A stretch of DNA of 64,000 bases, taken from Pseudomonadota bacterium (GTDB lineage Bacteria; Pseudomonadota; Gammaproteobacteria; Burkholderiales; Casimicrobiaceae). Below, piece by piece: positions 6,608 through 35,914 of this stretch (within the stretch, counting starts at the first letter, position 1; the number at the start of each line of letters is the position of its first letter). Both the position numbers and the translations under genes were made by a program. The stretch is from the NCBI GenBank assembly GCA_018241765.1, contig JAFEDD010000002.1, positions 260,876 to 324,875 on the forward strand, in the 5' to 3' direction. The notes under the pieces are model-generated. The model had not been told where the DNA came from. It did no database searches and worked only from the letters and a program-made list of their open reading frames with translations.

Positions 6608-6723
6608 CAACTTTTCCGTCAAACCCGCATCCACAACGGGCTTCGGGCGAGATTGTGGCAAAGTCGAGTTCTGACGATTTCGCGCTCCAAGCCTGTTATG
6701 GGCGTCATTTGAGCCAAAAGTTG
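6608..6723. repeat. 116-bp nested inverted repeat, copy 1
   Basis: Begins on the base after the WS/DGAT stop codon. Termini are CAACTTTTC (6608-6616) and CAAAAGTTG (6715-6723). Inner arms are AACGGGCTT at 6635-6643 and CAAGCCTGTT near 6688-6697, and the centre is GCAAAGTCGAGTT. GTCATTT precedes the right terminus. It belongs with the copies at 14315, 28882 and 35798; it is the most diverged in the right inner arm. It could fold as a long imperfect hairpin in RNA or as a cruciform. No coding potential is claimed. Confidence 0.85.
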
Positions 6724-7004
6724 TTGATCGAATACGGCGTCGATCATGGCGCCTTCGATCGGGGTGGCACGATCGGCGGCCCTCCTGAATGGTCAATCGC
6801 GTCCCGCGGATCCATGATGTTCGTCGCGCTTGAGTTCGCAGCTCCGGGCATCGATGAGCTCGAGTGCAGCGCAGGGCTCGCTCCTTGGGTTGGGTGCGAA
6901 AGAAAACCGGGGCGCGGCATGAATGGTTTGCTCGCCACATCATTTGCCTGTCAAGTTAAGATCGCCCTATTGATCGTTTTTGCGAATTGATCGGGAGACG
7001 CACC
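6724..7004. other. Intergenic region upstream of oxyR
   Basis: About 280 bases between repeat copy 1 and oxyR. Open frames cross it on both strands, but none shows a ribosome site plus a recognisable protein. The last 60 bases become AT-rich, as expected for the oxyR promoter, but no clear pair of -35/-10 boxes or OxyR tetranucleotide repeats could be fixed. Confidence 0.5.
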
Positions 7005-7967
7005 ATGGCCGCATTGCCTTCGCTGCAACAGTTGCGCTACTTGATTGCGCTCCATGCCGAGCAGCACTTCGGGCGTGCCGCCGAAAAGAGCTTCGTCACG
7101 CAGAGCACGTTGTCGGCGAGCCTGCGCGACCTCGAAGCCACGCTCGAAGTGACGCTGGTCGAGCGCGATCGCCGCCACGTCGCATTCACCGCGATCGGCG
7201 AGGCAGTCGTCGCCCGCGCGCGCGATCTCGTCGCCCAGGCGAACGATCTGGTCGAGCTTTGCGCCGCCACGCAGCGGCCGCTCAGCGGCAGCTTTCGGCT
7301 CGGTGTCATTCCGACCATCGCGCCGTTCGCGTTGCCCGCCTCGCTCGCCACGCTGCGCGCGCGCTTTCCCGATCTGCGGCTCTTTCTGCGCGAGGATCTG
7401 ACGGCGGGCTGCGTCGAGCGGCTGCTCGCGAGCACGCTCGACGCCGCGCTGATCGCGTTGCCGGTGGATCTGCCCGCCGCGCTCACCACGTTGCCGCTGT
7501 TCGACGACGAATTCCTGTTCGTCACCGCAGACGCCAAACTCGGTTCCGCGCATTCGCCGCTCCCGATCAGCAAGATCGACCCCGAGCAACTGCTGCTGCT
7601 CGAGGACGGGCACTGCCTGCGCGAGCACGCGATCACCGCCTGCGGCTTCAAGGGGCAGCAGAGCAATCGCACGCTGTCGGCCACCAGTCTGATCACGCTG
7701 ACGCAGATGGTCGCCAGCGGCCTCGGGCACACGCTGCTGCCCGAACTGGCCATCGCCGGCGGCGTGCTCTCCGGCTCCAGTCTGTACGCGCGCCGCTTCA
7801 CGCCGCGCGGGCCTGCCCGCACCGTCGCCCTGGTCTATCGCAAGACGACGGCGCGGGCGGCCGAAATCGCCGAACTTGGTCGCGTGTTCGCGCAGAGCAA
7901 GGGCTTCACCGGCGCGCGTCGCGCGAGCACGGTACAGCGTGCGCGCAAGGTGGTTGCGGCGCGCTGA
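7005..7967 (+). CDS. oxyR: OxyR-type LysR family regulator of peroxide response
   Basis: A 320-residue LysR regulator. The N-terminal winged helix (residues 3-62: LPSLQQLRYLIALHAEQHFG, then SFVTQSTLSASLRDLE) is followed by a periplasmic-binding-like sensor domain. The redox segment LLLLEDGHCLREHAITACGF carries the two cysteines expected of OxyR, and TSLITLTQMVASGLGHTLLP is also OxyR-like. It should activate catalase/peroxiredoxin genes on H2O2, although none adjoins. The ATG at 7005 follows a GGGAGA ribosome site. Confidence 0.9.
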   Translation: MAALPSLQQLRYLIALHAEQHFGRAAEKSFVTQSTLSASLRDLEATLEVTLVERDRRHVAFTAIGEAVVARARDLVAQANDLVELCAATQRPLSGSFRLGVIPTIAPFALPASLATLRARFPDLRLFLREDLTAGCVERLLASTLDAALIALPVDLPAALTTLPLFDDEFLFVTADAKLGSAHSPLPISKIDPEQLLLLEDGHCLREHAITACGFKGQQSNRTLSATSLITLTQMVASGLGHTLLPELAIAGGVLSGSSLYARRFTPRGPARTVALVYRKTTARAAEIAELGRVFAQSKGFTGARRASTVQRARKVVAAR

Positions 7968-8015
7968 GAGGCGAGCGGCGCTTGCGCGCGCCGTGACGCA
8001 CGGGATAATCGCGTC

Positions 8016-10778
8016 ATGAGCACGCCCGCCGCAGCCCCACCCGTCAGCGCCAAGCCCACCGATCCTGACCGCGACAAGGACGCACCGCTGCGCGCCGACA
8101 CGCGGCTCCTCGGCCGGCTGCTCGGCGACGTCATTCGCGCCCAACGCGGCGCGGCAACCTTTGACAAGGTGGAGACGATTCGTCAGGAATCGGTCCGCTT
8201 CCATCGCGATGGGGCGTCGCACCGCCCGCTCGACGCCATGCTCGCCGACCTCTCGATCGAGGAGACGCTCGACGTCGTGCGCGCCTTCACCTACTTCTCG
8301 CACCTCGCCAACATCGCCGAGGACGTTCAGCAGAACCGTCGTCGCCGCCATCATCGGCGGCGTGGCTCGGCACCGCAACCGGGTTCGCTGGTGGCAGCGT
8401 TCGCCCACCTGAAGGCCGCGAACATCCGTGGCGCCGAAATCTGGCACTGCCTGTCGCAAGCGCTGGTCAGTCCGACGCTCACCGCGCATCCGACCGAAAT
8501 CAAGCGGCAAAGCACGCTCGATGCCGAGCGTGAAATCGCCCGCGCGCTCGACGGCGAAGCCGAAGATCGCGAACTGCACCTGCAGCGTCTGGTGCTGCAA
8601 CTGTGGCAAACCGCGATGCTGCGGTTGACCAAGCTGCGTGTGCGCGACGAAATCGACAACGCGCTGTCGTACTTCCGGACGAGCTTTCTCACCGAAGTGC
8701 CGCGCCTGGTCGGCAACACGCTGCACGCCCTGGCCGAACACGATGGCACCCACGCCGAGTTGCCCGCCTTCTTCAAGATCGGCATGTGGATCGGCGGTGA
8801 TCGTGACGGCAATCCCTTCGTCAACGCCGACACGCTCGGCTATGTCATCGACACCCAGAGCGAACTCGTGCTGTCGCATTACCTGCGCGAACTGCACGCG
8901 CTCGGCGCCGAGCTTGCGATGTCGAGCCGTCTGGTCGAGGTCACGCCAGCGCTGAATGCGCTTGCCGAACGCGCCGACGATGATTCACGCTTTCGGGTCG
9001 ATGAGCCGTACCGGCGTGCGCTGGTCGGCATGTACAACCGCCTGGCGGCGACGTATCACAGCCTGACGGGACGGGCGCCAACGCGCCTGCCGCACCGCGA
9101 GGGCGCGCTGCCCTACGCCACGCCGGACGAACTGGCGGAGGACCTCGACTGCATCGCCGAATCGCTCGCCGCGCACGGCTCGGGCGTCATCGCCGACGCT
9201 CGCGTGCTGCCGCTCGAGCGCGCGGTCACCACCTTCGGCTTTCATCTGGCGCCGGTCGACCTGCGCCAGAACTCCGTGATCCATGAAGCGGTCGTCGCCG
9301 AACTGCTCGCCGGCTGCGGCGTCTGCGCCGACTATCTCGCGCTGCCCGAGGCGCAGCGCGTCGCGCTGCTCACGCGCGAGTTGGACAGCCCCCGGCTTCT
9401 GGCCTCGCCCTACATGCGGCTGTCGGAGACGGCGCTGGGCGAACTCGCCGTGTTCCGTCGCGCCGCCGAGGTGCACGCGCGCTTTGGCGCGGCGGCCGTG
9501 CCGCGCATGATCATCTCGATGGGGCGCTCGCTCTCCGATCTGCTCGAAGTGGCCACGCTTTGCAAGGAGGCCGGGCTGGCGCGCGGCGGCGACGCGCCGC
9601 ACCTTGCGCTCGCCATCGTGCCCCTCTTCGAGACGATCGATGACCTGCACGCGGCGCCCGCGGTCATGCGCGAAGCGTTCGCGCATCCGCTCTACCGGCG
9701 CTGGCTGCGCGCGCAGGGCGATGCCCAGGAAATCATGCTCGGCTACAGCGACAGCAACAAGGATGGCGGCTACGTCACCGCCAACTGGGCGCTTTATCGG
9801 GCGCAGCAGGCGCTGGTTGCCTGCTTTGCCGAGCACGGCGTGCGCCTGTGCCTGTTTCATGGACGCGGCGGCAGCGTCGGCCGTGGTGGCGGCCCGAGCT
9901 ACGAAGCGGTGCGCGCGCAGCCGCCCGGCGCCGTCCAGGGCTTTCTGCGCCTCACCGAGCAGGGTGAGGTGATCTCCAGCAAATACAGTGACCCGGACCT
10001 CGCGCAGCGCAACATGGAGACCTTGCTCGCGGCGGTGCTGGAGAGCACGCTGCTGCCTGCGGCGGCGACCGATGCCGCGCGCGAGGCGCGCTGGGAGCAA
10101 TTGGCGGAGCGCCTGAGCGGGCACGCCTGCGACGCCTATCGCGCGCTCGTCTACGGCGACCCCGACTTCGTCACCTACTTTCGCGAAAGCACGCCGATCA
10201 AGGAAATTGCCGAGCTCAACATCGGCTCACGCCCGGCCTCACGCAAGGCCGGCAGCCGCATCGAGGATCTGCGCGCCATTCCCTGGGTGTTCAGCTGGGC
10301 GCAGGCGCGTGTCGCGCTGCCCGGCTGGTATGGCTTCGGCAGCGCGGTGGACAAACTGCTCGCCGAGGAGCCGCAGGCGATCGCGCAGTTGCGCGTCATG
10401 GCGCAGCACTGGCCGTTCTTCGAGACGATGTTGTCGAACCTCGGCATGGTGCTCGCCAAGACCGACATGCAAATCGGAGCGGCCTACAGCACGCTGGTGG
10501 CCGACCGCGTCGTGCGCGAACGCATCTGGACGGCCATTCATGCCGAGTGGGAGCGTACACGCCAAGCGTATGAGGCGATCGTCGGTCGTACGCCGCTGGC
10601 CGACAACCCGACGCTCGCGCGTTCGATTCGCAATCGCTTTCCCTACCTCGACCCGCTGAATCACGTGCAGATCGAACTCATTCGCCGCGTGCGCTCGGGC
10701 GACACCGAGGAGCGCACGCAACGCGCGCTGCACCTGACCATCAACGGCCTCGCGGCGGGCTTGCGCAACACCGGATGA
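8016..10778 (+). CDS. ppc: Phosphoenolpyruvate carboxylase
   Basis: A 920-residue cytosolic enzyme that carboxylates PEP to oxaloacetate to refill the TCA cycle. Signatures are intact: TLTAHPTEIKRQST with the catalytic His (near residue 160), GYSDSNKDGGYVTANW, FHGRGGSVGRGGGPSYEAV (glycine loop) and the terminal LTINGLAAGLRNTG. A basic insert, NRRRRHHRRRGS, near residue 108 precedes the catalytic domain. It stands alone, 48 bases after oxyR on the same strand. Confidence 0.98.
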   Translation: MSTPAAAPPVSAKPTDPDRDKDAPLRADTRLLGRLLGDVIRAQRGAATFDKVETIRQESVRFHRDGASHRPLDAMLADLSIEETLDVVRAFTYFSHLANIAEDVQQNRRRRHHRRRGSAPQPGSLVAAFAHLKAANIRGAEIWHCLSQALVSPTLTAHPTEIKRQSTLDAEREIARALDGEAEDRELHLQRLVLQLWQTAMLRLTKLRVRDEIDNALSYFRTSFLTEVPRLVGNTLHALAEHDGTHAELPAFFKIGMWIGGDRDGNPFVNADTLGYVIDTQSELVLSHYLRELHALGAELAMSSRLVEVTPALNALAERADDDSRFRVDEPYRRALVGMYNRLAATYHSLTGRAPTRLPHREGALPYATPDELAEDLDCIAESLAAHGSGVIADARVLPLERAVTTFGFHLAPVDLRQNSVIHEAVVAELLAGCGVCADYLALPEAQRVALLTRELDSPRLLASPYMRLSETALGELAVFRRAAEVHARFGAAAVPRMIISMGRSLSDLLEVATLCKEAGLARGGDAPHLALAIVPLFETIDDLHAAPAVMREAFAHPLYRRWLRAQGDAQEIMLGYSDSNKDGGYVTANWALYRAQQALVACFAEHGVRLCLFHGRGGSVGRGGGPSYEAVRAQPPGAVQGFLRLTEQGEVISSKYSDPDLAQRNMETLLAAVLESTLLPAAATDAAREARWEQLAERLSGHACDAYRALVYGDPDFVTYFRESTPIKEIAELNIGSRPASRKAGSRIEDLRAIPWVFSWAQARVALPGWYGFGSAVDKLLAEEPQAIAQLRVMAQHWPFFETMLSNLGMVLAKTDMQIGAAYSTLVADRVVRERIWTAIHAEWERTRQAYEAIVGRTPLADNPTLARSIRNRFPYLDPLNHVQIELIRRVRSGDTEERTQRALHLTINGLAAGLRNTG

Positions 10779-10841
10779 ACCGCTCAGGGCAGCGGCGCGA
10801 CGGCCCGCGGGCGTTGTCGTCGAAAGCAATTTCCCGATGCC

Positions 10842-10855
10842 TTGACCTGCATCAG
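10842..10855 (+). promoter_or_regulatory. Possible FNR/Anr-type site
   Basis: TTGAC-CTGC-ATCAG matches the FNR consensus TTGAT-N4-ATCAA at all but the innermost left and outermost right bases. It lies about 97 bases before the start of the GspE-like gene, in a 173-base gap with no other gene, so it could put that gene under low-oxygen control. A single near-match in GC-rich DNA is weak evidence. Confidence 0.4.
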
Positions 10856-10951
10856 TCGGTGCCTGCTTGCCAAGTCGCGCTTCGCCACGATACTTGAATG
10901 AAGGGAAGACGGCCGCGATGTCCGGCCGGCAAACTGCGAGGGGTGTGACGC

Positions 10952-12691
10952 ATGGCGCGGGAGAGAGCGGGCGAGCGGACGATCACGCACGCCGATGAAC
11001 TGGAGGCGCTGCTCGACGCGCACGCCGAATCGAGCTCGGCCTACGGCGAAATGCTCAATAGCGGCGAGCCGCCGAGTCGAGAGGATTTCGAGCGCGCGCG
11101 ATCACTGGTCGCCGGGGTGCTGGCCGGCAATACGTCGCCGCCGAATCTCGACGTCGCGCGGCAGACGTTGCACGCGATCCGCGATCTTCCGCGCGTCGAC
11201 CTCGAACGCTTCGAGGTTGCGCCGAACGTGGCAAGCCTCTTGTCGAGCGCGGTGGTCGAGCGCTATCGCATCCTGCCGCTGATGCTGTGGCGCGGCGTCG
11301 TCGTGTTCGCCGTGTCCGAACTCTTCGACGAGGAGACGCTCGCGGTGCTGCGCTTCGTGTTGCAGCGGCGATTTGCCGTGGTGCGCGCCAGCAGCGTGCA
11401 GATCGACGAGGCGATCAACCGCCGCTATCGCTCGGCGCAGGAGGCGGAGGATCAGCGCGCGTTGACCGAACTGGCGAACGAGCAGGAGCGGCACGCCGAG
11501 CAGGACGATGACCGTCTGTGGCGCGACGCCGAGCACGTCGCCAAGCGTGCGCCGATCGTCAAACTCGTCGATGGCCTGCTGCACGAAGCGGTCGCCATGC
11601 GTGCCTCCGATGTGCACATCCGGCCTGGCAAGGACGAATTCGAGGTGCTCTACCGCATCGACGGCTCGCTGGTGCCGATGCGCAGCCTGCGCGCGGCGCT
11701 GCTGCCAGCCGTCGTCAGCCGCATCAAGATCGTCGCCATGCTCGACATCACCGAGCGGCGGGTGCCGCAGGACGGCCGCATCCGTCTTGAGACCGGCGAG
11801 CAGCCGATCGATCTGCGGGTTTCGGTGATTCCGGTGCAGCACGGCGAGAGCGTCGTCATCCGCATCCTCGACAAGCGCGCCGGCCTGCGCTCGGTCGACG
11901 AGATCGGCTTCAAGGATGCCGACAAGGCGCGCTTCCTCGATCTCATCCGGCGCAGCTACGGCATCATCCTGGTCACCGGCCCCACCGGCTCCGGCAAGAC
12001 GACCACGCTTTACGCTGCGCTGCAGGCGGTGAAGAAGGAGAACGTCAACATCGTTACGGTGGAAGACCCGATCGAATACGAGCTCGGCCGGACGCGCCAG
12101 ATCCAGCTGCTGCCGCAGATCAATTTCGGGTTCCCGCAAGCGCTGCGCCACATCCTGCGCCACGACCCCGACGTCATCATGATCGGCGAAATGCGCGACC
12201 TCGAAACCTGCAAGATCGCCGTCGAGAGCGCGCTCACCGGCCACCTCGTGTTCAGCACGCTGCACACCAACGATGCCGCGAGCACGCTGGTGCGCCTGAT
12301 CGAGATCGGCATCGCCCCCTACATGATCCGCTCGGCCGTGATCGGTGTGCTGGCGCAGCGGCTGGTGCGACGCAACTGCCGTCACTGCCGCGTGCCCGAG
12401 GTCATCGACCCGCTGATCGCCGAAAACCTCGCGCTGCAACCGGGCGAGAAGTTCCTGCGCGGCGCCGGCTGCGAGCAATGTCATTTCACGGGGTTCTCGG
12501 GCCGCATGGCGATCTACGAGCTGATGGTCATGAATGACGCCATTCGCAGCCACGTGGCCGATGGCGTGGCGAGCGACGAATACCGCCAGCTCGCCATCAC
12601 CAGTGGCATGACGCCGCTGCCGGTCAACGGTGTCGAAGCGGCGCGCAGCGGCAACGTCTCGATCGCCGAAATCTATCGGGCCTGCATGTGA
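10952..12691 (+). CDS. GspE/PulE/PilB-family type II secretion or pilus assembly ATPase
   Basis: A 579-residue secretion ATPase. An N-terminal MshEN/GspE-N-like region (residues about 60-160) leads into the ATPase core: VKLVDGLLHEAVAMRASDVHI, Walker A GPTGSGKT (343-350), Asp box VEDPIEYEL, Walker B DPDVIMIGEMRD, His box GHLVFSTLHTND. The zinc-type cysteines CRHC (near 473) and CEQC (near 505) are kept. No gspF/pilC, pseudopilin or secretin gene adjoins, so the partner system is elsewhere or lost. It is less likely to be PilT, because the tetracysteine module and N-domain are present. Confidence 0.88.
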   Translation: MARERAGERTITHADELEALLDAHAESSSAYGEMLNSGEPPSREDFERARSLVAGVLAGNTSPPNLDVARQTLHAIRDLPRVDLERFEVAPNVASLLSSAVVERYRILPLMLWRGVVVFAVSELFDEETLAVLRFVLQRRFAVVRASSVQIDEAINRRYRSAQEAEDQRALTELANEQERHAEQDDDRLWRDAEHVAKRAPIVKLVDGLLHEAVAMRASDVHIRPGKDEFEVLYRIDGSLVPMRSLRAALLPAVVSRIKIVAMLDITERRVPQDGRIRLETGEQPIDLRVSVIPVQHGESVVIRILDKRAGLRSVDEIGFKDADKARFLDLIRRSYGIILVTGPTGSGKTTTLYAALQAVKKENVNIVTVEDPIEYELGRTRQIQLLPQINFGFPQALRHILRHDPDVIMIGEMRDLETCKIAVESALTGHLVFSTLHTNDAASTLVRLIEIGIAPYMIRSAVIGVLAQRLVRRNCRHCRVPEVIDPLIAENLALQPGEKFLRGAGCEQCHFTGFSGRMAIYELMVMNDAIRSHVADGVASDEYRQLAITSGMTPLPVNGVEAARSGNVSIAEIYRACM

Positions 12692-12785
12692 GGCTCGCGA
12701 CGCCGAGGCACGCAGCAAGTGCCGCGTCGTTTGCGACGACGGACCGAAACCCCGACAATAGCGCCTCTCCTCAGCGCCATTCGTG

Positions 12786-13820
12786 ATGACCTTGACTTCG
12801 TCTCCGGTCGAGCTTTCGCTCGAACCCATCGACAACGCCGTGCTTGCCGCCGTCTGCGGCCCACTCGACGAGCATCTTCGCCGCATCGAAACCGCCTTCG
12901 CGGTGAGCGTGCGCCGGCGCGCCGCGCAGTTTCGTCTCGCCGGCGGCGAACGCGCCGTGCTCGCTGCGCGCAAGGCGATCGAGCGCCTGCGCGCGCTCGC
13001 GGGCGACGGACGACGTGACATCGACGAGCGCGACATCGACCTCTTGCTGGCTGAACTGAAGCGTCCGCTGAATGAGGCGACGGATGAGGACGATGCGGCG
13101 GTCAAGACGCGACTGGACGCCGAGTTCGCGGCGCTGGAGGCCGCCGCCGGTGCCATTGCGCTGAAGGTTCGACGCGCCGATCTCACGGCGCGCACGCCGA
13201 CCCAGCTCGCCTATCTGCAAAACATCCGCGAGCACGACATCACCTTCGGTGTCGGCCCGGCCGGCACCGGCAAGACCTATCTGGCGGTGGCCTGCGCGGT
13301 CGATGCGTTCGAACGTGATCTCATCAAGCGCATCGTGCTGGTGCGCCCGGCCGTGGAGGCGGGCGAACGGCTGGGTTTTCTGCCGGGCGATTTGATCCAG
13401 AAGGTCGACCCCTATCTGCGCCCCCTGTATGACGCGCTCTTTGATCTGATGGGGTTCGAGAAGACGACCAAGCTCATGGAGCGCGGCACGATCGAGGTGG
13501 CGCCGCTCGCCTTCATGCGCGGACGCACGCTGAACGGCGCCTTCATCATCCTCGACGAGGCGCAGAACACCACGCCCGAGCAGATGAAGATGTTCCTCAC
13601 CCGCATCGGCTTCGGCACCAAGACCGTCGTCACCGGTGACCCGACGCAGATCGATCTGCAGAAGAACCAGAAGAGCGGCCTGATCGACGCCCAGCACGTG
13701 CTTGGCGACGTGCCGGGCATCGCCTTCACGCGCTTCACGGCGGCCGACGTCGTGCGCCATCCGCTGGTGCAGAAGATCGTCACCGCGTACGAACGGCAGG
13801 CCGGCCGCGACAACTCGTGA
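12786..13820 (+). CDS. phoH: PhoH family P-loop ATPase
   Basis: A 344-residue PhoH-like protein (YbeZ type): a KH-like N-terminal region, then an ATPase domain with [17 protein letters not shown] (Walker A), [38 protein letters not shown] (Walker B) and [11 protein letters not shown]. It is thought to work with YbeY in rRNA and RNA metabolism. It starts the phoH-ybeY-corC-lnt series. ATG 12786 is used; a GTG one codon upstream is possible. Confidence 0.95.
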
Positions 13821-13845
13821 CGGTGGCGATCGGCGGGAGGAGCGA

Positions 13846-14307
13846 GTGAGCTTGTCGGTGGCGGTGCAGTTTGCCAGTCGTGCGCCCGGGCTGCCCTCGC
13901 GCGCGCAGGTGCGGCGCTGGGCGCTCGCCACGCACGCCGTGCATGCGGGCGACGCCGACGGGGTCGTCACGCTGCGCTACGTCGACGCCGCCGAGGGGCG
14001 CGCGTTGAACCGCGATTTTCGCGGCCGCGACTACGCCACCAACGTGCTCACCTTCGTGCTCGCCACCGTCGCCGAGCACGGACGCTACGTCGCCGACATC
14101 GTCATCTGCGCCCCGGTCGTCGCCCGCGAAGCACGAGCGCAGAAGAAGGCGCTGCACGAGCATCACGCGCACATGGTCGTGCACGGCATGCTGCACGCGC
14201 AGGGGCTCGATCACGAAGACGCCGCCGAGGCCGCGGCCATGGAGGCCGTCGAGCGCGCCGTGCTCGCCCGATTTCGTATAAAAGACCCTTATGCGACACC
14301 GCACTGA
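13846..14307 (+). CDS. ybeY: Endoribonuclease YbeY
   Basis: A 153-residue metalloprotein with the zinc-binding signature HGMLHAQGLDHE near residue 112 and the family segments LNRDFRGRDYATNVLTF and GDIVIC-like ADIVICAPVV. YbeY takes part in 16S rRNA 3'-end maturation and 70S quality control. The GTG start at 13846 follows the ribosome site GGGAGG. It sits 25 bases after phoH and is followed, 8 bases past its stop, by repeat copy 2. Confidence 0.94.
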   Translation: MSLSVAVQFASRAPGLPSRAQVRRWALATHAVHAGDADGVVTLRYVDAAEGRALNRDFRGRDYATNVLTFVLATVAEHGRYVADIVICAPVVAREARAQKKALHEHHAHMVVHGMLHAQGLDHEDAAEAAAMEAVERAVLARFRIKDPYATPH

Positions 14308-14314
14308 AGGGCAT

Positions 14315-14430
14315 CAACTTTTCCTTGACATGGCGTCGGTAACGGGCTTGGAGCGCGATATGCGCGAAAGTCGACTTTATCGGAAATTGGCCGCGAAGCC
14401 CGTTGTGGACGTCATCGTGGCGAAAAGTTG
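14315..14430. repeat. 116-bp nested inverted repeat, copy 2
   Basis: Lies between ybeY and corC, inside what would otherwise be one same-strand operon. Perfect termini CAACTTTTC (14315-14323) and GAAAAGTTG (14422-14430); inner arms AACGGGCTT and AAGCCCGTT; centre GAAAGTCGACTTT; GTGGACGTCAT before the right terminus. corC starts 39 bases after it. Confidence 0.88.
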
Positions 14431-14469
14431 CTTGCCGAAAATTCGCTTCGCGCGCCCGTGGGGGCGATC

Positions 14470-15297
14470 ATGAGCGACGCCGAGGAGCGCCCGAAACCAG
14501 GCTTCTTCGAGCGGCTGTCGGCGCTGCTGTCGGGCGCGCCCGAGGATCGCGACGATCTGCTCGCGATGCTGCGCGACGCGCACGCCCGCAAACTGCTCGA
14601 TGCCGACGCGCTGTCGATCTTCGAGGGCGCGCTCGAAGTCGCCGAAATGACGGTCGACGATGTCATGGTGCCGCGCTCGCAGATGGACGTCATCGAACTC
14701 GACGCCGCGCCCGCTGCCATCATCGCCGAGATGGTCGAGACGCGCCACTCGCGCTATCCGGTCATCGGCGAGAACCGCGACGAGGTGGTCGGCATCCTGC
14801 TCGCGAAGGACCTGCTCGCGTACCTCGTCAACGCTGACGCGTTTTCGCTGAAAGCCGTGCTGCGGGCGCCGATGTTCGTGCCGGAAACGAAGCGCCTGAA
14901 CGTGCTGCTGCGCGAGTTTCGCTCGCAGCGCAACCACATGGCCATCGTCATCGACGAACACGGCTCCGTGGCCGGGTTGGTGACACTGGAGGACGTGCTC
15001 GAGCAGATCGTCGGCGAGATCATCGACGAATACGACTACGACGAAGAGGCCGACAACATCGTGGCCGAAGGCGCGACCAAGTGGCGCGTCAAGGCCTCCA
15101 CCGACATCTCCGCGTTCAACGAGCGCTTCGGCACGGCCTTCAGCGATGAAGACGCCGCCACCGTCGGCGGCTTGCTGATGGAGGCCTTCGCCCGCGTTCC
15201 CCAGCGCGGCGAGAGCATCGTGCTCGACGGGCTTCGTTTCACGGTGTTGCGCGCCGACGGTCGGCGCGTGTGGCTGGTGAGCGTGGAGCGCGCTTGA
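14470..15297 (+). CDS. corC: CorC/HlyC family CBS-domain transporter-associated protein
   Basis: A 275-residue cytosolic protein: acidic N-terminal segment, two CBS domains (about residues 65-185, including MTVDDVMVPRSQMDVIEL and MAIVIDEHGSVAGLVTLEDVLEQIVGEI), then a CorC/HlyC FAD-like C-terminal domain with VGGLLMEAFARVPQRGES. Homologues are linked to Mg/Co efflux, and the gene is conserved next to ybeY and lnt. Its stop overlaps the likely TTG start of lnt. Translation starts 39 bases after repeat copy 2. Confidence 0.93.
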   Translation: MSDAEERPKPGFFERLSALLSGAPEDRDDLLAMLRDAHARKLLDADALSIFEGALEVAEMTVDDVMVPRSQMDVIELDAAPAAIIAEMVETRHSRYPVIGENRDEVVGILLAKDLLAYLVNADAFSLKAVLRAPMFVPETKRLNVLLREFRSQRNHMAIVIDEHGSVAGLVTLEDVLEQIVGEIIDEYDYDEEADNIVAEGATKWRVKASTDISAFNERFGTAFSDEDAATVGGLLMEAFARVPQRGESIVLDGLRFTVLRADGRRVWLVSVERA

Positions 15298-16903: not shown

Positions 16904-16916
16904 TTCGTCAGCATTC

Positions 16917-21388: not shown

Positions 21389-21391
21389 ACG

Positions 21392-24011: not shown

Positions 24012-24398
24012 ATGAGCGACATGATGACGATGGCGGCCCCGGCCGCTGCTGCTCCGGCCCCGGCGAAGAAAAAGCCGGCCGCCAAGAAGCCCGCAGCGAA
24101 GAAGCCGGCCGCGAAAAAACCCGCAGCCAAGAAGGCCGCCACCAAGAAGCCCGCGAAAAAGGCAGCCGCTAAAAAGCCGGCCAAGAAAGTAGCGGCGAAG
24201 AAGCCCGCGAAGAAAGCGGCAGCCAAGAAGCCCGCCAAGAAAGCGGCAACCAAGAAGCCCGCGAAGAAAGCGGCAACCAAGAAGCCTGCGAAGAAGGCAG
24301 CGGCCAAGAAGCCCGCCAAGAAAGCGGCAACCAAGAAGCCTGCGAAGAAGGCCGCAACCAAGAAGCCCGCGAAAAAAGCTGCTACCAAGAAAAAGTAA
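24012..24398 (+). CDS. Histone H1-like DNA-binding protein (KPAKKA repeats)
   Basis: A 128-residue, extremely basic low-complexity protein. After a short alanine/proline leader (about 20 residues), nearly the whole chain is built from KKPAAKK and KKPAKKA steps. Such proteins resemble the C-terminal tail of eukaryotic H1 and the Bordetella/Burkholderia H1-like and AlgP/PhaF-type proteins; they bind DNA without a folded domain. The repeat number is likely to vary between strains because the DNA is a near-tandem repeat. A strong terminator follows 22 bases after the stop. Confidence 0.88.
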
Positions 24399-26564: not shown

Positions 26565-26704
26565 GCCTTCTCCTGAAATGGGGCACGGGTCGGGCGCGCA
26601 ATGAGATGACTGTGCTGTGTGTGGCCCGACGAAATCTCGCGCGATGCTACGCAGTCGAAGCGCTGCGGTCAACCCATTCGCGCAAATGCGGTGCCGAAAA
26701 TCGC

Positions 26705-28381: not shown

Positions 28382-28884
28382 GCCCGCGCCGCGCCGCGCA
28401 ACCGCTCGCCGACGTCGATGCCGACGCCGCGCCGAGGCCAGCCCCGGACGTCGTCATCTACACCGACGGCGCGTGCAAGGGCAACCCCGGCCCCGGCGGC
28501 TGGGGCGCGTTGTTGATCTTCGGCGAGCATCGGCGCGAGATCCATGGTGGCGAAGCGCTGACCACCAACAACCGCATGGAACTGACGGCGGCGATCGAGG
28601 CGCTGCGCGCGTTGAAGCGACCGTGCCGCGTGCGCCTGATCACCGACTCGACCTACGTCAAGCAGGGCATCGAGACGTGGATTCACGGCTGGAAGCGCAA
28701 CGGCTGGCGCACCGCCGACAAAAAACCGGTGAAGAACGCCGATCTGTGGCAGGCGCTCGACCAGCTGGCCGCGACGCACCGCGTGCAGTGGCACTGGGTG
28801 AAGGGGCACGCCGGTGACGCCGGCAATGAGCGTGCCGACGCCCTGTCGAATCTCGGCATTCCGGGCGGCACGCAGGGCCTATAA
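28378..28884 (+). CDS. rnhA: Ribonuclease HI
   Basis: A 168-residue enzyme that cuts the RNA of RNA-DNA hybrids. An N-terminal extension of about 25 residues, [18 protein letters not shown] and following, precedes the fold. Catalytic residues are in [16 protein letters not shown] (Asp), [13 protein letters not shown] (Glu), [10 protein letters not shown] (Asp) and [13 protein letters not shown] (His/Asp). It is coupled to the methyltransferase by an ATGA overlap. Its TAA stop is the first three bases of repeat copy 3. Confidence 0.96.
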
Positions 28885-28998
28885 CTTTTTCTCGAAAAGC
28901 GCATTCACAACGGGCTTAGCGCGAGGAAATCGGCAAAGTCGACTTTTCGTGTTTTGGCGCCGGAAGCCCGTTACAGACGTCATTTGCACGAAAAGTTG
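28882..28998. repeat. 117-bp nested inverted repeat, copy 3
   Basis: Sits between the convergent genes rnhA and radC: it begins with the rnhA stop codon and ends 10 bases before the radC stop codon. Left terminus TAACTTTTT, right terminus GAAAAGTTG (28990-28998). Inner arms AACGGGCTT and AAGCCCGTT; centre GCAAAGTCGACTTT; GACGTCATTTG before the right terminus. The position suits a bidirectional 3'-end structure. Confidence 0.88.
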
Positions 28999-29008
28999 AA
29001 GAGCCTTT

Positions 29009-29707
29009 TTACAGCTCTCCCATCATCGCCATCGAACGCACGGCCATCGCGCCGTCGGTGGTGGCGTCGGTCGCGCCGACGATGCAGTGATCGAGCACGG
29101 CGACATCGATCAGCGCAAGCGCGTCCTTCAAGGTTCGGGTGAGCGTGCGGTCGGCCTGGCTCGGCTGCGTGGAGCCCGACGGATGGTTGTGGGCGAGGAT
29201 CACGGCCGCTGCGTTCTTGGCGAGCGCCGCGCGCACCACCTCACGCGGGTAGACGCTGGTCTGTGCGAGCGTGCCGCGAAAGAGTGTTTGCATCTCGATC
29301 AGCCGATGCTGCGCGTCGAGCCACAGCGCGACGAAGACCTCGATCCGCTCGTGCCCGAGCGACAGCCGCAGGTAGTCGCGCACGATGTCGGGCGAACCGA
29401 GCAGCGGCCGCTCGGCCATCGCGCTCGCCAGCGCCCGGCGCGCAATCTCCACGGTGGCTTGCAACTGCACGAACTTCGCTTCACCCATGCCGTGCACCGC
29501 GCAGAACGCGTCGCGCGGCGCAGCCACCACCGCGGCCACCGAGCCGAAGCGTTGCAACAGTTCACGCGCCAGTTCCACGGCGCTTTGGCCGGCGACGCCG
29601 ACGCGCAGAAAGATCGCCAGCAGTTCGGCGTCGGTCAGGGCCTGCGCCCCGCGCTCCAGCAGTTTCTCGCGCGGCCGATCATCGGCCGGCCAGTCTCGGA
29701 TGCTCAT
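29009..29707 (-). CDS. radC: RadC family JAB-domain protein
   Basis: A 232-residue protein with an N-terminal helix-hairpin-helix part ([25 protein letters not shown], and [15 protein letters not shown]) and a C-terminal JAB/MPN metal site ([22 protein letters not shown]). RadC was once linked to DNA repair, but its real function is unresolved. Start taken at the [14 protein letters not shown] methionine; an in-frame start 36 bases earlier adds a non-family leader. Confidence 0.93.
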
Positions 29708-29825
29708 GCATGCTCTCCGCCGCGATGGTCGCGGCCCGAGCATGAATTATGGATGGATTTACAGTCTTTGCAAACCGTGCCGCGCGATGCCTGCGACCGC
29801 AGGTTCGTTGCCGCCCGATCGAGCG

Positions 29826-31046
29826 TTACCGCGATACGTACTTGCCCAGTTCCATCTTGGCAATCGCGTTGCGGTGCACCTCGTCGGGCCCGTCGGCGAA
29901 GCGCAGCGTGCGCAGATTCGCCCACGCGCCGGCGAGTGGGAAATCGTCGCTGACGCCGCCGCCACCATGCGCCTGAATGGCCCAGTCGACCACTTGCAGC
30001 GCCATGCTTGGCGCGACCACCTTGATCATGGCGATTTGCTGCTTGGCGACCTTGTTGCCGGCGACGTCCATCATCCACGCCGCGTTCAACGTGAGAAAGC
30101 GTGCCTGATCGATCATGCAGCGTGCCTCGGCGATGCGTTCGTGCCAGACCGATTGCGCGGCGACCGGCTTGCCGAACGCGACGCGGCTCGCCAGGCGCTT
30201 GCACATCAGTTCCAGCGCCCGTTCGGCGACACCGATCGAGCGCATGCAGTGGTGGATGCGCCCCGGCCCCAGGCGGCCCTGCGCGATCTCGAAGCCGCGC
30301 CCTTCCCCGAGCAGGATGTTGGCGACCGGCACCCGCACGTTCTCGAAGAGAATTTCGCAATGGCCGTGCGGCGCGTGGTCGTAGCCGAACACATTGAGCG
30401 GCCGCACCACCGTCACGCCGGGCGTGTCGGCGGGCACCAGGATCATCGATTGCTGCACGTGCTTGGGCGCGTCCGGGTCGTTCTTGCCCATCACGATGTA
30501 GACCGCGCAGCGCGGGTCGCCCGCGCCCGAGATCCACCACTTGCGGCCATTGATGACGTAGTGCTCGCCCTCGCGAACGATGCGTGTTTCGATGTTCGTC
30601 GCATCCGACGAGGCGACCGCCGGCTCGGTCATCGCGAAGGCCGAGCGTGTGTTGCCGGCGAGCAGATCGGGCAGCCACCGCGCCTTTTGTTCGGCCGTGC
30701 CGTACTGGATGATCGTCTCGATGTTGCCGGTGTCCGGGGCCGAGCAGTTGAACACTTCCGAGGCCCACATCACGCGCCCCATGATCTCCGCGAGCGGCGC
30801 GTACTCCATGTTGTTCAGCCCGGCGCCGTATTCGTGGTGCGGACAGAAGAGGTTCCACAGCCCCTGCGCGCGGGCGAGCGGCTTCAGCTCCTCGACGATG
30901 CGGGTCGGCGCCCAGCGGTTGCCGGCCTTCGTGTTGTCGGCGACGTCCTGCTCGTAGCGCTGCTCATTCGGGTAGATGTGCTCATCGAAGAAGCGCAGCA
31001 GCCGTGCCTGATAGTCCTTGACCTTGTCGGAGTGCTGAAAATCCAT
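29826..31046 (-). CDS. Acyl-CoA dehydrogenase (ACAD10/11-like)
   Basis: A 406-residue flavoenzyme: all-alpha N-domain from [20 protein letters not shown], middle beta domain with [16 protein letters not shown] and [16 protein letters not shown], and C-terminal helical domain with [15 protein letters not shown] and [20 protein letters not shown]. It follows an APH-type kinase gene with 52 bases between, on the same strand. In ACAD10/11 and in the bacterial levulinate (lva) pathway, the same two activities act on 4-hydroxyacyl-CoA: phosphorylation, then dehydrogenase-fold elimination. That role is an inference here. Confidence 0.88.
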
Positions 31047-31098
31047 GTCGAAACCCCTGCTGACGGTGATGATGGATGATGGTGTGTCCGGCGAGCGC

Positions 31099-32181
31099 TC
31101 ACACCGCGATACGCTGCGCCATGTGCCAGCCCTGTTCGGCGATCGGTCGCGCCGATTTGCCCATCGCCACGGCCTGCGCGCTGGCGGCGGTGCCGTCCAC
31201 CACGCGCTTCATGATGCCCTGCAGGATGCCGGCGAGCCGAAACATGTTGTAGGCGAGGTAGAACTCGAAATCGGGGATGCCCTGCGGACGCCCCGTGCGT
31301 TCGCAGTAGCGCGCGATGTAGGGTGCGAGCGCGGGGATGCCGGTGCCGCTCAGGTCGACCCCGGCCATGCCGCGCCCGCTGCCCGGTGGCAGCACCCACG
31401 TCATGCAGTGATAGGCGAAGTCCGCCAGCGGATGCCCGAGCGTCGAGAGTTCCCAGTCGAGCACGGCCAGAATGCGCGGTTCCGTCGGGTGGAAGATCAC
31501 GTTGTCGAGACGATAGTCGCCGTGCACGATGCGCGTCTCGTCGCCTGCGGGAATGTGCGCCGGCAGCCACTCGATCAGCGCATCCATCGCTGCGATCGAC
31601 TCGGTCTCCGAGGCGCGGTACTGCTTCGTCCAGCGCGCGATCTGACGCTCCAGATAGCCGCCGTGGCGACCGTAGTCGTCGAGACCGGCGGCGACGAAAT
31701 CGACCTGATGCAGCGCGGCGATGACGCGGTTCAGTTCATCGAAGATCGCGGCGCGCTCCGGCGGTGTCATGCCCGGCAGCTGCGGGTCCCAGAGCACGCG
31801 CCCGTCGACGAAATCCATCACGTAGAACGCGCGTCCGATGACTGCTTCGTCCTCGCACAAGGCGTGCATCGCGGCGACCGGCACCTCGCTGCCGGCCAGC
31901 GCCCGCATCACGCGGAACTCGCGTTCGATCGCGTGAGCCGAGGGCAGCAGTTTCGCCGCGGGCGCGGGCTTCGTGCGCATCGCATACGTCCGACCCGGCG
32001 TGATCAGCTTGAAGGTCGGGTTGGATTGCCCGCCCTTGAACTGCTCCACGGTGAGCGGCCCGTTGAAGCCCGCGACATGCGTGCCGAGCCACGCCGCGAG
32101 GGCACCGACATCGAAGCGGTGGCGCTCGGTGACAGGCCGTGTTCCGGTAAATGATTCGCTGCGACTGACCGCGTCCGTCAT
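31099..32181 (-). CDS. Phosphotransferase of the aminoglycoside-kinase (APH) fold, ACAD10/11- or LvaA-like
   Basis: A 360-residue kinase-fold protein: the nucleotide region has [25 protein letters not shown], the catalytic loop is [14 protein letters not shown], and the metal DFG-equivalent is [19 protein letters not shown]. This is the ACAD10/11 kinase-domain type rather than an antibiotic-resistance kinase. It is first in a two-gene unit with the acyl-CoA dehydrogenase and is divergent from dtd. Substrate inferred, not seen: a 4-hydroxyacyl-CoA. Confidence 0.85.
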
Positions 32182-32325
32182 CGATGGAGTTCCTTCGTGA
32201 GGTGCCGGAATCGCCGCGCTTGCGCGGCACGCGGTCGATGCTACGGCACCGCGCTGGAGCGTTCGCTCGAACGAGCGTCATTTTCGGCATCGGCGGCGTC
32301 CACCGTCGCTCCCTACAATGTCCGC

Positions 32326-32775
32326 ATGCGAGTGCTGGTGCAACGGGTGGCCACGGCCGAGGTGACGGTGGCGGGACGCGCGAGCGGGGCGATCGGACCC
32401 GGCTTGCTGCTTCTGGTCGGCATCACCCACAGTGACGACGAGGCGACGCTCAAGCGCATGGCCGACAAAGTCGTCAAACTGCGCATCTTCGCCGATGAGG
32501 CGGGTCTGATGAACCGCAGCGTGCTCGACGTCGGCGGCGACGTGCTCGCCGTCAGCCAGTTCACGCTCTACGCCGACGCGCGCAAGGGCAATCGACCGAG
32601 CTACACCGAGGCCGCGCGACCCGAAGTCGCCTCGCCGCTGTTCGATCGCTTCGTCGCCGCGCTCGCGCAGCGCCTCGGCAAACCCGTGGCGACAGGCGTT
32701 TTCGGTGCCGACATGAAGGTGGAATTGCTCAACGACGGCCCGGTGACGATCTGGCTCGATTCGGCCACGCTCTGA
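32326..32775 (+). CDS. dtd: D-aminoacyl-tRNA deacylase
   Basis: A 149-residue enzyme that removes D-amino acids (and mischarged Gly) from tRNA. Motifs are intact: [36 protein letters not shown] (the SQFTL site) and [11 protein letters not shown] (the G-cisP loop reads NDGPVT). Full length, starting at the ATG that gives the standard MRVLVQRV N-terminus. Confidence 0.96.
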
Positions 32776-32862
32776 CGGCAGCCCTCGGCAAGCGGCAGGC
32801 GAGGGCTCGTGCACGTCGCCACCACGCAGCGCTCGAGGGCGTGCGGGTTCGCCCGCAAACCG

Positions 32863-33303
32863 TCATTGGCAGATCAACTTGCCCACGGAAAGTCTCGCGC
32901 CGGTGCGCAGCAGGCGCTCGGACAACTCGCACTGGCGAGTGCCCGCAGGCAACGCCCGGGTGAGCAAGAGTGTGCTGTTGATGTAGCTGCATGCCACCCA
33001 GTACGAGGTGTCGGCGGGCCCGCGCAGTCGCCAAAGCGACTTGCGTTCGAGGGACTTGCTGCTCGTCCTGTCCGGGACGAGGTTTGCCATCTCGTTCGGC
33101 GGGCCTGAAAAGACGGAAATCGAGTCCAGAAATTTGCCTCGCTTGCCTTGGTCGACTTCCACCTGCCATCCATCGGCTGCGCCATGGGGCGATTCGGTGG
33201 CATCGAGCGTCGGCGGGCACACGATGACCGTCGGTTCTGCGTGGGCGGCGAGGGTCAACAGCGTGGCGAAGGCAACGCCGATGAGTTTCGATGGGTTGTG
33301 CAT
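32863..33303 (-). CDS. Secreted STY0301-like protein
   Basis: A 146-residue exported protein. A signal peptide (LIGVAFATLLTLAAHA) is followed by a mature part with CPPTLDATESP, WQVEVD, SVFSGPPNEMANLVP, LWRLRGPADTSYWVACSY and RALPAGTRQCELSE. The four cysteines and spaced Trp residues match the STY0301 family as I remember it, a group of small periplasmic proteins of unknown function. Nothing in the neighbourhood indicates its role. Confidence 0.65.
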   Translation of the reverse strand: MHNPSKLIGVAFATLLTLAAHAEPTVIVCPPTLDATESPHGAADGWQVEVDQGKRGKFLDSISVFSGPPNEMANLVPDRTSSKSLERKSLWRLRGPADTSYWVACSYINSTLLLTRALPAGTRQCELSERLLRTGARLSVGKLICQ

Positions 33304-33537
33304 GGTCAATCGATGACGTGATGTTGCCTTGCCGGATGGACGAAGTTGGCATTTCCGAACACGGTTCTCTCTGCGATGCGTGGCTTGCATGGCATGATCC
33401 CCGCCTTGCGCTGACAAGACGGAATGGCCGCCCTCATCGTGACATCGGTCGCCTTCGGTGCTTGCCTGAACGACATGGTCATCGTGGCGTCACCGACGCG
33501 CGTTATGCTTCGCGCCAATTTTTCGTCGAGGCCATCC

Positions 33538-34620
33538 ATGAAACCGTTCTGGGTCGGGTTGTCGTCGCTCGCCGTGGCGAGTGCATTGCCGCTCATGCCG
33601 TCATCCGTTGCCGCGCAAACGCCGTCGCTACAACCACCGTCGGTGCCTGCTGCCGTGCAGACGCTCAATATCCTGTGCTCCACCGACGCCGACTGGTGCG
33701 AGAGCAAGGCGCGCGAGTTCTCCGTCGCCAGCGGCATTCGCGTGAACATCGTGCGCAAGGCGACCGGCGAAGTCTTCGCGCAGTTGCGTGCCGAAGCGGC
33801 CAACCCCAAGGCCGACCTCTGGTACGGCGGCACGCATGACCCGCATCTGCAGGCGGCCAACGAGGGGTTGCTGCAACCCTACGTCAGCGCCAACATGAAG
33901 GACCAATATCCGTGGTCGGCCGATCTGCTCGCCAAGAGCGGCAATCAGGTGGTCGGCATCTACCGCATCACGCTGGGGCTCGGCTACAACCGCGATCTGA
34001 TGGCGAAGAAGGGGCTGAAACCCCCGGCGTGCTGGAGTGATCTGATCAAACCCGAGTTCGCGGGCGAGATCGAGACCTCGAACCCGACCACGAGCGGCAC
34101 CGGCTACACGTTGCTCGCGACGATCGTGCAACTGATGGGCGAGGATCGGGCGTTCGACTACCTGCGCGCGCTCAATCGCAACGTCAATCGCTACACGACG
34201 AGCGGCACGGCGCAGCGCCAGAGTGTGGCGCGAGGCGAATCGCTGATCGGCATCACGTTCCTCGACGAATTCATTCCCGAGATGTTCGTCGGCGCGCCGA
34301 TCGAGGTGGTGCTGCCGTGCGAGGGCACGGGCTACAGCGTCGGCGCCATGAGCATCGTGCGTGGCGCGCGCAACCTCGACGCCGCGAAGAAGTTCTATGA
34401 CTGGGCGCTCACCGCCGACGCGCAGACGATCCGCGACCAGACCCGCGTGATCGCCATCCCGTCCAACCGCGCGGCCTGGGCGCCGGAGCCGGTGAAGGCG
34501 CTGGAACGGGCGCGGCTGATCAACTACGACTTCGCGAAATTCGGCGCCAGCGCCGAACGCAAGCGTCTGCTCGAGCGCTGGGAGCGCGAAATCAAGAACG
34601 CACCGCGCGCCAAACCCTGA
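33538..34620 (+). CDS. ABC transporter substrate-binding protein, Fe(III)/FbpA-like (paralogue 1)
   Basis: A 360-residue periplasmic binding protein. A signal peptide is cut near SVAAQ, then a family-1 extracellular binding fold: LNILCSTDADWCESKAREFS, RAEAANPKADLWYGGTHDP, ITLGLGYNRDLM, NPTTSGTGYTLLATIVQLMGEDRAFDY and VLPCEGTGYSVGAMSIV. A shorter start is chosen because the frame extends upstream without a signal-like sequence. It is closely similar along its length to the next gene. No permease or ATPase lies beside it, so it must use components encoded elsewhere. Confidence 0.85.
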   Translation: MKPFWVGLSSLAVASALPLMPSSVAAQTPSLQPPSVPAAVQTLNILCSTDADWCESKAREFSVASGIRVNIVRKATGEVFAQLRAEAANPKADLWYGGTHDPHLQAANEGLLQPYVSANMKDQYPWSADLLAKSGNQVVGIYRITLGLGYNRDLMAKKGLKPPACWSDLIKPEFAGEIETSNPTTSGTGYTLLATIVQLMGEDRAFDYLRALNRNVNRYTTSGTAQRQSVARGESLIGITFLDEFIPEMFVGAPIEVVLPCEGTGYSVGAMSIVRGARNLDAAKKFYDWALTADAQTIRDQTRVIAIPSNRAAWAPEPVKALERARLINYDFAKFGASAERKRLLERWEREIKNAPRAKP

Positions 34621-34718
34621 GCGGGCGCCGCCATGGCAATGAAACGCCGCGCCGACGCGGCGACGGTTTTGGTTATTCTCGACGCTTGTTTCGTCGCCTC
34701 TCAGACTGGAGTTGTTTC

Positions 34719-35732
34719 ATGAAAACGCGCATCGCGATGATCGTTGCGGCCATGTTCGCCGCGCCCTCGTTTGGCCAGCAGGTCACGGCGTATTGCTCGA
34801 CCAACCAGTCTTGGTGCGAGATGGCGGCCACCGAGTTCGCCAAGGCGACCGGCATCAAGGTCGTGCAGACGCACCTGGGCACGGGCGAGGCGCTCGCCCG
34901 CCTGCGGGCCGAGGCGAGCAACCCGAAGACCGACATCTGGTGGGGCGGTACCGGCGACCCCTACCTCGCGGCATCCGAACAGGGGCTGCTCGAAGCGTAC
35001 CGACCCGCGTACCTGAAGGACCTCTACGACTGGAGCGTTCGCCAGTACGACATGAGCGGCAACACGGTCGGCGGCTTCTACACCAGCTTCATCGGTCTCG
35101 GCTACAACGAGGACACGCTCGCCCGCGCCAAGCTGCCGGCTCCGAAATGCTGGGCTGACCTGATCGACCCGAAATACAAGGCGCAGATCGAGATGGCGCA
35201 CCCGGCGTCCTCGGGTGGCGCCTACACCATCGTCGCTGGCCTCATTCAGCAGATGGGCGAGGATCGCGCGTTCGACTACATGAAGAAGCTGCACAAGAAC
35301 ATCACGCAGTACACCAAGAGCTCGCAGGCGCAGGCGAAGAACGTCGCCCGCGGCGAGGTGGCGATCGGCATTTCGTTCAGCTTCGGCTTCGACGAAGAGC
35401 GGCACGCGGGCTTCAAGTCGGTGCAGGCGGTGGCGCCGTGCGAGGGCACCTCCTATGAGGTCGGCGGCATCGCGCTGATCAAGGGTGCCCGCAACGCCGA
35501 GAATGCGCGCAAGTATTACGACTGGCTGATGAGCCCGGTCGGACAGGCAATCGGTGCCAAGGCCAACTCGCTGCAGAACCCGGCCAACAAGACGTTCAAG
35601 CAGGACCCGAAGATCCCGACGCTCGACGGCGTCAAGCTGATGAACTACGACTTCAAGAAGTACGGCGCGTCGGCCGAGCGCAAGCGCATCCTCGAAAAAT
35701 GGGAAAAAGAGGTCAACTCGCTGCCGCGCTGA
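34719..35732 (+). CDS. ABC transporter substrate-binding protein, Fe(III)/FbpA-like (paralogue 2)
   Basis: A 337-residue periplasmic binding protein with a short signal peptide (MKTRIAMIVAAMFAAPSFG). Shared landmarks with the preceding gene: AYCSTNQSWCEMAATEFAKA, RAEASNPKTDIWWGGTGDP, FIGLGYNEDTL, HPASSGGAYTIVAGLIQQMG, APCEGTSYEVGGIALIKGA and the terminal YGASAERKRILEKWEKE. Ribosome site TGGAG. A tandem duplication is the simplest origin. The conserved CST.xxWCE pair of cysteines near the N-terminus could form a disulfide. Confidence 0.87.
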   Translation: MKTRIAMIVAAMFAAPSFGQQVTAYCSTNQSWCEMAATEFAKATGIKVVQTHLGTGEALARLRAEASNPKTDIWWGGTGDPYLAASEQGLLEAYRPAYLKDLYDWSVRQYDMSGNTVGGFYTSFIGLGYNEDTLARAKLPAPKCWADLIDPKYKAQIEMAHPASSGGAYTIVAGLIQQMGEDRAFDYMKKLHKNITQYTKSSQAQAKNVARGEVAIGISFSFGFDEERHAGFKSVQAVAPCEGTSYEVGGIALIKGARNAENARKYYDWLMSPVGQAIGAKANSLQNPANKTFKQDPKIPTLDGVKLMNYDFKKYGASAERKRILEKWEKEVNSLPR

Positions 35733-35797
35733 TCGCAGCGCACGAGGTGCCCCGCTGCGCGCGCTCGCGCCGCAGCGTCGGGCGCCGTTCGGGCTGA

Positions 35798-35914
35798 CAA
35801 CTTTTCGCGCAAATGACCTCCATGACGGGCTTGGCGCCCGATTAGGCGAATAGTCGAGTTTGCGTGTTTTCGGCCGCCAAGCCCGTTATGGATGCGGCTT
35901 GCGACGAAAAGCTG
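35798..35914. repeat. 117-bp nested inverted repeat, copy 4
   Basis: Lies between the convergent binding-protein and msrB genes, 65 bases after one stop and 37 before the other. Termini CAACTTTTC (35798-35806) and GAAAAGCTG (35906-35914). In the left arm GCAAATGAC is the complement of the GTCATTTGC seen in copy 3. Inner arms ACGGGCTTGGCG and CCAAGCCCGTTATGG; centre ATAGTCGAGTTT. Confidence 0.88.

Follow-up and report, generated by a model that had tools for sequence, protein, structure and literature searches.

A ~124-bp two-fold symmetric intergenic element with shared positions and genome-specific arms in a genus of Casimicrobiaceae: a putative protein recognition site

The palindromes known from bacterial intergenic regions, including ERIC with its palindromic shape, are mostly regarded as mobile elements or as RNA. 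REPINs are inverted REP doublets linked to RAYTs (PMC3116915, excerpt), and in the REP superfamilies, one end of a short hairpin bears the tag GTAG or CGTC (PMC3733652, excerpt). ERIC is a 127-bp intergenic repeat of enterobacteria, and CIR, which contain GANTC, are ~110-bp repeats of Caulobacter and Brucella (both PMC2229807, excerpt). This study concerns an inverted-repeat element that occurs in four copies in a 64,000-nucleotide stretch of DNA (referred to as the window; contig JAFEDD010000002.1, positions 260,876 to 324,875; 66% GC) from the genome of a Casimicrobiaceae bacterium (referred to as G000; 3.24 Mb in 76 contigs), which was compared with 16 relatives of the same genus (G001-G016). 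The element is a ~124-bp dyad with its arms at an exact distance, and the literature that we searched contained no description of such a family, a statement of absence limited to that search. Positions below are those of the whole window, and d is the distance in bp from the dyad centre of the element.

The first-pass annotation of the window had described the four copies and proposed a search for others in the same genome, the absence of which would have counted against its proposal; this search yielded 175 copies in the whole of G000 (both arms, spacing of 46 bp, up to 3 mismatches), with a single match of the reversed control pattern. The detailed copy set came from 935 kb of sequence, made up of the window and 74 stretches selected because they surround copies (75 sequences in all), in which a symmetric position weight matrix detected 111 copies (weakest score, 56); a slightly shorter matrix likewise detected 111, and reversed sequence scored 5 or less. 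The density was ~1 site per ~16-19 kb; the gap-free tracts C22 (322 kb) and C44 (192 kb) contained 17 and 15 copies, respectively, one of the latter scoring very low (16).

The geometry was fixed. When the arms were reduced to ACGGGCTT / AAGCCCGT and no mismatch was allowed, 80 pairs in G000 were separated by 46 bp, one by 47 bp, and none by 15-45 or 48-77 bp. Similarly, GGGCT, where present within d19-34, began at d29 in 195 of 197 places. The strong blocks of the matrix were the center (d1-6, with TCGA in 104 of the 111 G000 copies), a base-specific arm (~d24-42, of the GCATCCATAACGGGCTTG type in G000), and CTTTT as the outer block (~d52-57); the matrix also had an A/T block (d12-15, with 98-99% A/T at d13-14 and nearly equal shares of A and T) and an A-rich block at ~d44-46 (AA at d44-45). 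In five of six genomes, the arm itself was a weak dyad centered near d34 within each half; when this internal dyad was tested at d34.5 and d35 in four genomes, no covariation was detected. The whole site carried ~118 bits of information in G000, and the values for three relatives with 18-25 copies each were 78-88 bits, compared with the 14 bits needed to place 175 sites.

Positions of the element were common to several species. Among 231 gene ends that were comparable through reciprocal best proteins between the G000 stretches and stretches of five relatives, an element was present in both genomes at 22, in the relative only at 8, in G000 only at 4, and in neither at 197 (nominal Fisher p 2e-20). 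This signal came mostly from G005 (10, 3, 1, and 90, respectively) and G012 (9, 3, 2, and 67), and G015 gave 2, 0, 0, and 11. The species sharing positions have roughly 70-80% protein identity. On the other hand, the sequence at a shared position was not shared: with identities of 0.38-0.60, orthologous copies (16 pairs involving 15 different G000 copies, from the calls of the first gene caller) were not closer to each other than random pairs were (G005, 0.50; G012, 0.49). Of the two matrices, that of G000 gave the higher score to the G000 copy in 16 of 16 pairs, and the copy of the relative scored higher with the matrix of its own genome in 15 of 15, the 16th pair (G013) being scored with the G005 matrix as a stand-in.

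The gap between ybeY and corC, which contains one of the window copies, was readable in 16 of the 17 genomes (the contig of G014 ends there) and was scored with a matrix averaged over six genomes. The score was 38-95 in nine genomes (G000, G001, G003, G004, G005, G006, G008, G012, and G015), 18-19 in G013, G007, and G011, and -4 to -5 in G010 and G002; in all of these 14 genomes, this gap was the best-scoring place of the locus. By eye, the center and outer blocks were still visible in G013, and G002, G007, G010, and G011 (L232, L233, L234, and L238) possessed a ~150-bp spacer from the ybeY stop codon with an unlike sequence, possibly an element that has decayed or is specified differently. 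No spacer was found at this junction in G009 and G016, the best scores of which lay elsewhere and were below -28. These two empty junctions were viewed by eye for a target-site duplication, and the flanks were too diverged to define the ends of the element. In G005 (L226), the element of this gap was seen by eye to be flanked on both sides by a further ~15-bp imperfect inverted repeat.

Occurrence beyond these loci depended on how strongly the search relied on the arms. Exact 8+8 arms matched in none of 59 relatives. A sequence-only model (R1) matched 12 of 119 genomes at E 0.01: G000 itself, 10 of the 16 relatives in the genus (lowest E, 1e-15), and, marginally, a genome of another family (E 0.0076). 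A pattern independent of the arms (outer CTTT, center AGTCGACT, and AAAG) was applied to 399 genomes of the order, including seven of the 17 members of the genus. It matched at 53 places in G000, 85 in G005, and 6 in G009, and had no match in the remaining four (G002, G007, G011, and G016); outside the genus there were two single matches, and the reversed control also gave two. In the stretches fetched from the relatives, the register was unchanged and the arms differed by genome: TGGGCTT in G005 and G006, ATTGGGCT in G012, and GGGGCTA in G015. The 16S rRNA gene of G005 showed its best identity (91.4%) to Cupriavidus records in the plasmid collection searched, which suggests a Burkholderiales-like betaproteobacterium with no close named relative among those records; no 16S rRNA gene was found when looked for in G000 and G002. 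Two Burkholderia matches from a scan of named genomes were judged to be unrelated, since the inverted repeats spanned 72 and 67 bp overall, compared with the 70 expected, and had other flanks. As an observation in its own right, these Burkholderia contigs (L034 4810-4881 and L035 4133-4199) carry long inverted repeats with the same 12-base arm, CATAACGGGCTT, and with other spacing and flanks.

The two halves of a copy varied almost independently of each other: left-right identity over d1-62 was 0.610, compared with 0.606 when the halves were reshuffled (108 G000 copies), and no left-right excess was found when G005, G006, and G015 were tested. Two half types were distinguished, A (GACGTCC-like) and B (GCATCC-like), and their combinations among the 108 copies (BB 48, AB 48, AA 11, and one unassigned) corresponded to the Hardy-Weinberg expectation (48.4, 47.1, and 11.4, respectively). 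The register of the outer block shifted by 1 base with the type: of the halves in which CTTT was found, 61 of 63 of type A had it at d55 and 120 of 123 of type B at d56. No orientation of the half types relative to neighboring genes was detected among the G000 copies. Independent variation of the halves argues against an RNA hairpin or cruciform, and independent, freely mixed half types are the pattern expected of separate protein-binding half-sites. A structured RNA at the 3' end of mRNA (a terminator or stability hairpin), one of three guesses of the first-pass annotation, is thus extremely unlikely, even though a long stem is formed when most of the window copies (four in total) are folded, and many copies come after stop codons. 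Besides the near independence of the halves, mixed half types do not pair, the half types lack orientation to genes, 15 copies sit in divergent gaps, and the outer 3' end has AAAA instead of a U-run. Furthermore, a match to Rfam, which that annotation had named as grounds for rejecting its own proposal, was searched for with covariance models, and there were 0 matches in the window at the gathering score and 0 at E 0.1 in four copy-bearing loci.

Six lone half-sites were noted in 1.23 Mb (L047 84 and 2498, L073 17031, L079 15579, and L083 6614 and 7361). All six belong to one other repeat family, consisting of one B-type half and the center followed by divergence, with similarity extending over ~220-260 bp in five of the six.

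The mean pairwise identity of the 111 copies was 0.626, compared with 0.627 in a null of column-by-column draws given the half type, and all 111 cores were distinct. Since almost no copy-to-copy ancestry is visible, these results argue against an active miniature inverted-repeat transposable element (MITE) or REPIN. The MITE-like guess of the first-pass annotation did not hold in its active form, given identities close to those of independent sites and positions common across species, and survives as an old, silent burst, the main rival to the explanation that we prefer. The element would then be what is left of a REPIN- or MITE-like, non-autonomous mobile element, possibly rewritten in place by a genome-specific master copy via conversion and with no present function in the cell. 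Consistent with such a relict, which we consider unlikely on balance, a few copy pairs are more alike than the null permits; two relatives have no element at the ybeY-corC junction, indicating its gain or loss there as a unit; and Y1_Tnp, the domain of RAYTs, was found in all genomes of the genus except G009 and G016 (15 of 17). The element also resembles REPINs in being symmetric, extragenic, and numerous, and in having conserved ends, two in number and inverted, that are exactly spaced around a variable spacer (PMC3116915, excerpt). It differs from REPINs, as far as they are described in the same excerpt, because its halves hardly compensate (compensation is called common in REPIN spacers), it forms no near-identical population, its positions but not its sequence are common across species, and its structured pattern covers ~124 bp. 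Only 4 of 6105 pairs reached an identity of at least 0.8, and two of these four were neighbors in one locus. No element was found within ~1.3 kb of the four Y1_Tnp genes tested (2 of 2 in G000 and 2 of 4 in G005), near which the best half-site score was at most -29 in G000 and at most 1.1 in G005, compared with a median of 67 for halves of true copies; G009 contains elements and has no Y1_Tnp match. Positions restricted to A/T and two coupled half types would also be unexpected from decay. Searches of plasmids with copy 3 and of phages with copy 2 gave no match, and viral contigs gave none for one arm pattern.

ERIC is similar to the element in length and intergenic location (PMC2229807, excerpt). 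The element differs in its little copy ancestry, its genome-specific consensus, hardly any hairpin covariation, and another bacterial order, and is thereby set apart by description, not by sequence. CIR share with it the character of long intergenic inverted repeats that are absent from genes (PMC2229807, excerpt). However, the element is present in ~175 copies, forms one symmetric dyad instead of two hairpin arms, and is poor in GANTC, which was rarer than in shuffled sequence: it was present in 18 of 111 copies in G000 and, in two other genomes, in 6 of 23 and in 2 of 25, compared with shuffled means of 0.38-0.40.

The context of the copies was counted with a second gene caller, which covers 0.69 of the sequence, misses genes, and trims starts; the first caller had some window genes on the wrong strand as judged by Pfam, and its context counts were left unused. 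With the second caller, none of the 111 copies was inside a gene by more than 40 bp, and they fell into 40 tandem, 19 convergent, and 15 divergent gaps and 37 gaps with an uncalled neighbor. The distance from the edge of the element to the 3' end of a flanking gene had a median of 36 bp (101 ends). The first-pass annotation had characterized the family by its location at gene 3' ends, with two copies between convergent genes; this is correct for the four window copies, and does not extend to the genome as a whole, given the three gap types above. The same counts bear on the possibility that an ordinary transcription regulator has a very large family of operators here, acting in local gene control. 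Regulator-motif co-evolution is a studied subject (PMC4494728 and PMC8222616, abstracts) and the sites are intergenic; nevertheless, we regard such a family as improbable because many copies lie close behind gene ends, 19 of the 74 copies with both neighbors called are in convergent gaps, one copy separates ybeY from corC within a run of co-directional genes, and the length and information are far beyond the needs of placement.

Peaks of A/T content were found near d = 5, 14, 24, 31, 37, 44, 53, 60, and 68. Some period between 9.5 and 11.6 bp was present over d1-70 (permutation P 0.0005; best, 9.55); the best single period (9.6 bp) explained just 29% over d1-65, and the best period was near 7.8 bp in three of six genomes. 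This periodicity, the dyad symmetry, a length near that of the 130-bp gyrase motif, and alternating A/T runs recall strong DNA gyrase binding sites, and the element might act like BIME-2 or the Mu strong gyrase site (PMC6379681, excerpt). On the other hand, the 10.75-bp GC period in the flanks of that motif is absent (R2 0.14 over d18-65, where the best fit was 7.3 bp with R2 0.44), and strongly base-specific arms that differ between lineages as closely related as these ill suit a conserved enzyme, making a role as gyrase sites very unlikely.

The four window copies, with the blocks CAACTTTTC ... AACGGGCTT ... AAAGTCGACTTT ... AAGCCCGTT ... GAAAAGTTG in this order, were located exactly where the first-pass annotation had placed them (Table 1). 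CAACTTTTC occurs 6 times in the window, compared with 0.28 expected (0 of 100 shuffles reached 6), and its match at 55582-55590 falls outside every copy of the element. The left inner linker of copy 1 is 1 base shorter (25 bp from arm to center, compared with 26 in copies 2-4), and both halves of copy 2 are of the A type. The gap neighbors according to Pfam are WS/DGAT and LysR, YbeY and CorC, RNase H and RadC, and a solute-binding protein and SelR (MsrB), respectively.

Table 1. Copies of the element in the window and the parts of copy 2.
Feature	Position	Strand	Context or basis
Copy 1	6608..6723	.	Directly 3' of WS/DGAT stop (4679-6607, +); LysR-type gene downstream (7005-7967, +)
Copy 2	14315..14430	.	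7 bp past ybeY stop (14305-14307), before corC (called 14470-15297)
Central palindrome AAAGTCGACTTT, copy 2	14367..14378	.	Sequence
Left arm AACGGGCTT, copy 2	14341..14349	+	Sequence
Right arm, copy 2 (AACGGGCTT on minus strand)	14396..14404	-	Exactly 46 bp from left arm
Copy 3	28882..28998	.	Convergent gap: rnhA (stop 28882-28884, within element end) / radC (29009-29707, -)
Copy 4	35798..35914	.	Convergent gap: solute-binding-protein gene (stop 35730-35732, 65 bp upstream) / msrB (35952-36371, -)

Two other features of the window were observed. Direct repeats of ~88-92 bp occupy 63107-64000 and reach the window end, with nine copies of an 80-nt part showing 90-100% identity to a reference copy. 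The 27-bp repeats of a reading frame at 24012-24398 are rich in codons for lysine, alanine, and proline, and the frame looks like that of a histone-H1-like nucleoid protein.

Among the three guesses of the first-pass annotation, a protein-binding nucleoid site fits best, with the binding itself put forward here as putative. From the comparison of DNA sequences, we consider it rather probable that the element is a ~124-bp double-stranded recognition site for a putative multi-protomer protein, kept by selection and co-evolving with that protein, perhaps for chromosome organization. Several points weigh against this explanation. The effect of position was not shown by G006 (0, 1, 0, and 12, in the order used above) or G001 (1, 1, 1, and 17); the gene ends compared are non-independent because one element can touch two ends; and the stretches were picked around copies in both genomes, which inflated the overlap of loci, but not the choice of the gap within a locus. 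The matrices used for orthologous pairs contain the scored copies and differ in sharpness. A left-right excess was detected at d23-35 in G000 (0.870 compared with 0.851, z 3.2), at d36-50 in G012 (z 2.5, 24 copies), and over the whole site in G001 (z 2.4, 12 copies). The first, less reliable gene caller placed 18 of the 111 copies inside reading frames, and the intergenic location relies on the second caller with its coverage of 0.69. The upper tail of pairwise identity was slightly heavy (51 pairs compared with 38 at an identity of at least 0.75, and 4 compared with 0.15 at that of at least 0.8), and a star-like old burst also yields independent variation, so that independence alone leaves room for an old mobile origin. 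Finally, the spacing of copies in G000 over 514 kb was barely more even than random (CV, coefficient of variation, 0.73 compared with 0.96; P 0.046), and the 76 G005 places among the matches listed showed no significant regularity of spacing (P 0.18).

If the element is a recognition site of this kind, two inverted half-sites around the center of TCGA (between TC and GA) would form one site. Its size, its excess information, and its repeated blocks point to a fixed nucleoprotein complex, in which several protomers of a sequence-specific protein would be bound, probably as one set on each half. The sites may then bridge, loop, or insulate DNA, with a very large regulon as the alternative; the structural role is preferred because ~175 intergenic sites have no fixed relation to transcription. 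In addition, the spread along the chromosome (in the complete genome G005, the 76 places among the matches listed showed no significant unevenness over nine bins, P 0.34) and the indifference to gene orientation favor, with modest confidence, chromosome organization over local control. An old copying event in the genus may have spread the copies, which would afterwards have been held in place and rewritten base by base; such a copying phase is assumed because the de novo origin of a ~100-bit pattern at so many sites is hardly to be expected. Where a place is kept and its sequence is replaced by the consensus of the genome itself, the simplest account would be a trans-acting reader with a lineage-dependent preference. 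This genome-specific consensus, the two half types, and the positional conservation go beyond the claims of the first-pass annotation. More tentatively, and with less confidence than in the recognition site itself, the chromosome may be pictured as punctuated by ~175 giant (~124 bp, ~100-bit) two-fold symmetric sites for a dedicated, putative architectural complex, the specificity of which would drift by species with the sites following in place; such sites would be similar to chromatin boundary sites in logic, not in homology.

Places of the element often persist between species while the sequence turns to a genome-specific consensus, which is the trace expected of a co-evolving reader. We know of no comparable scale in bacteria for the turnover of sites together with a co-evolving reader. 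The reader, if found, would be a new chromosome-organizing or regulatory protein, and the element family would provide a natural record of a protein and well over 100 sites changing specificity together.

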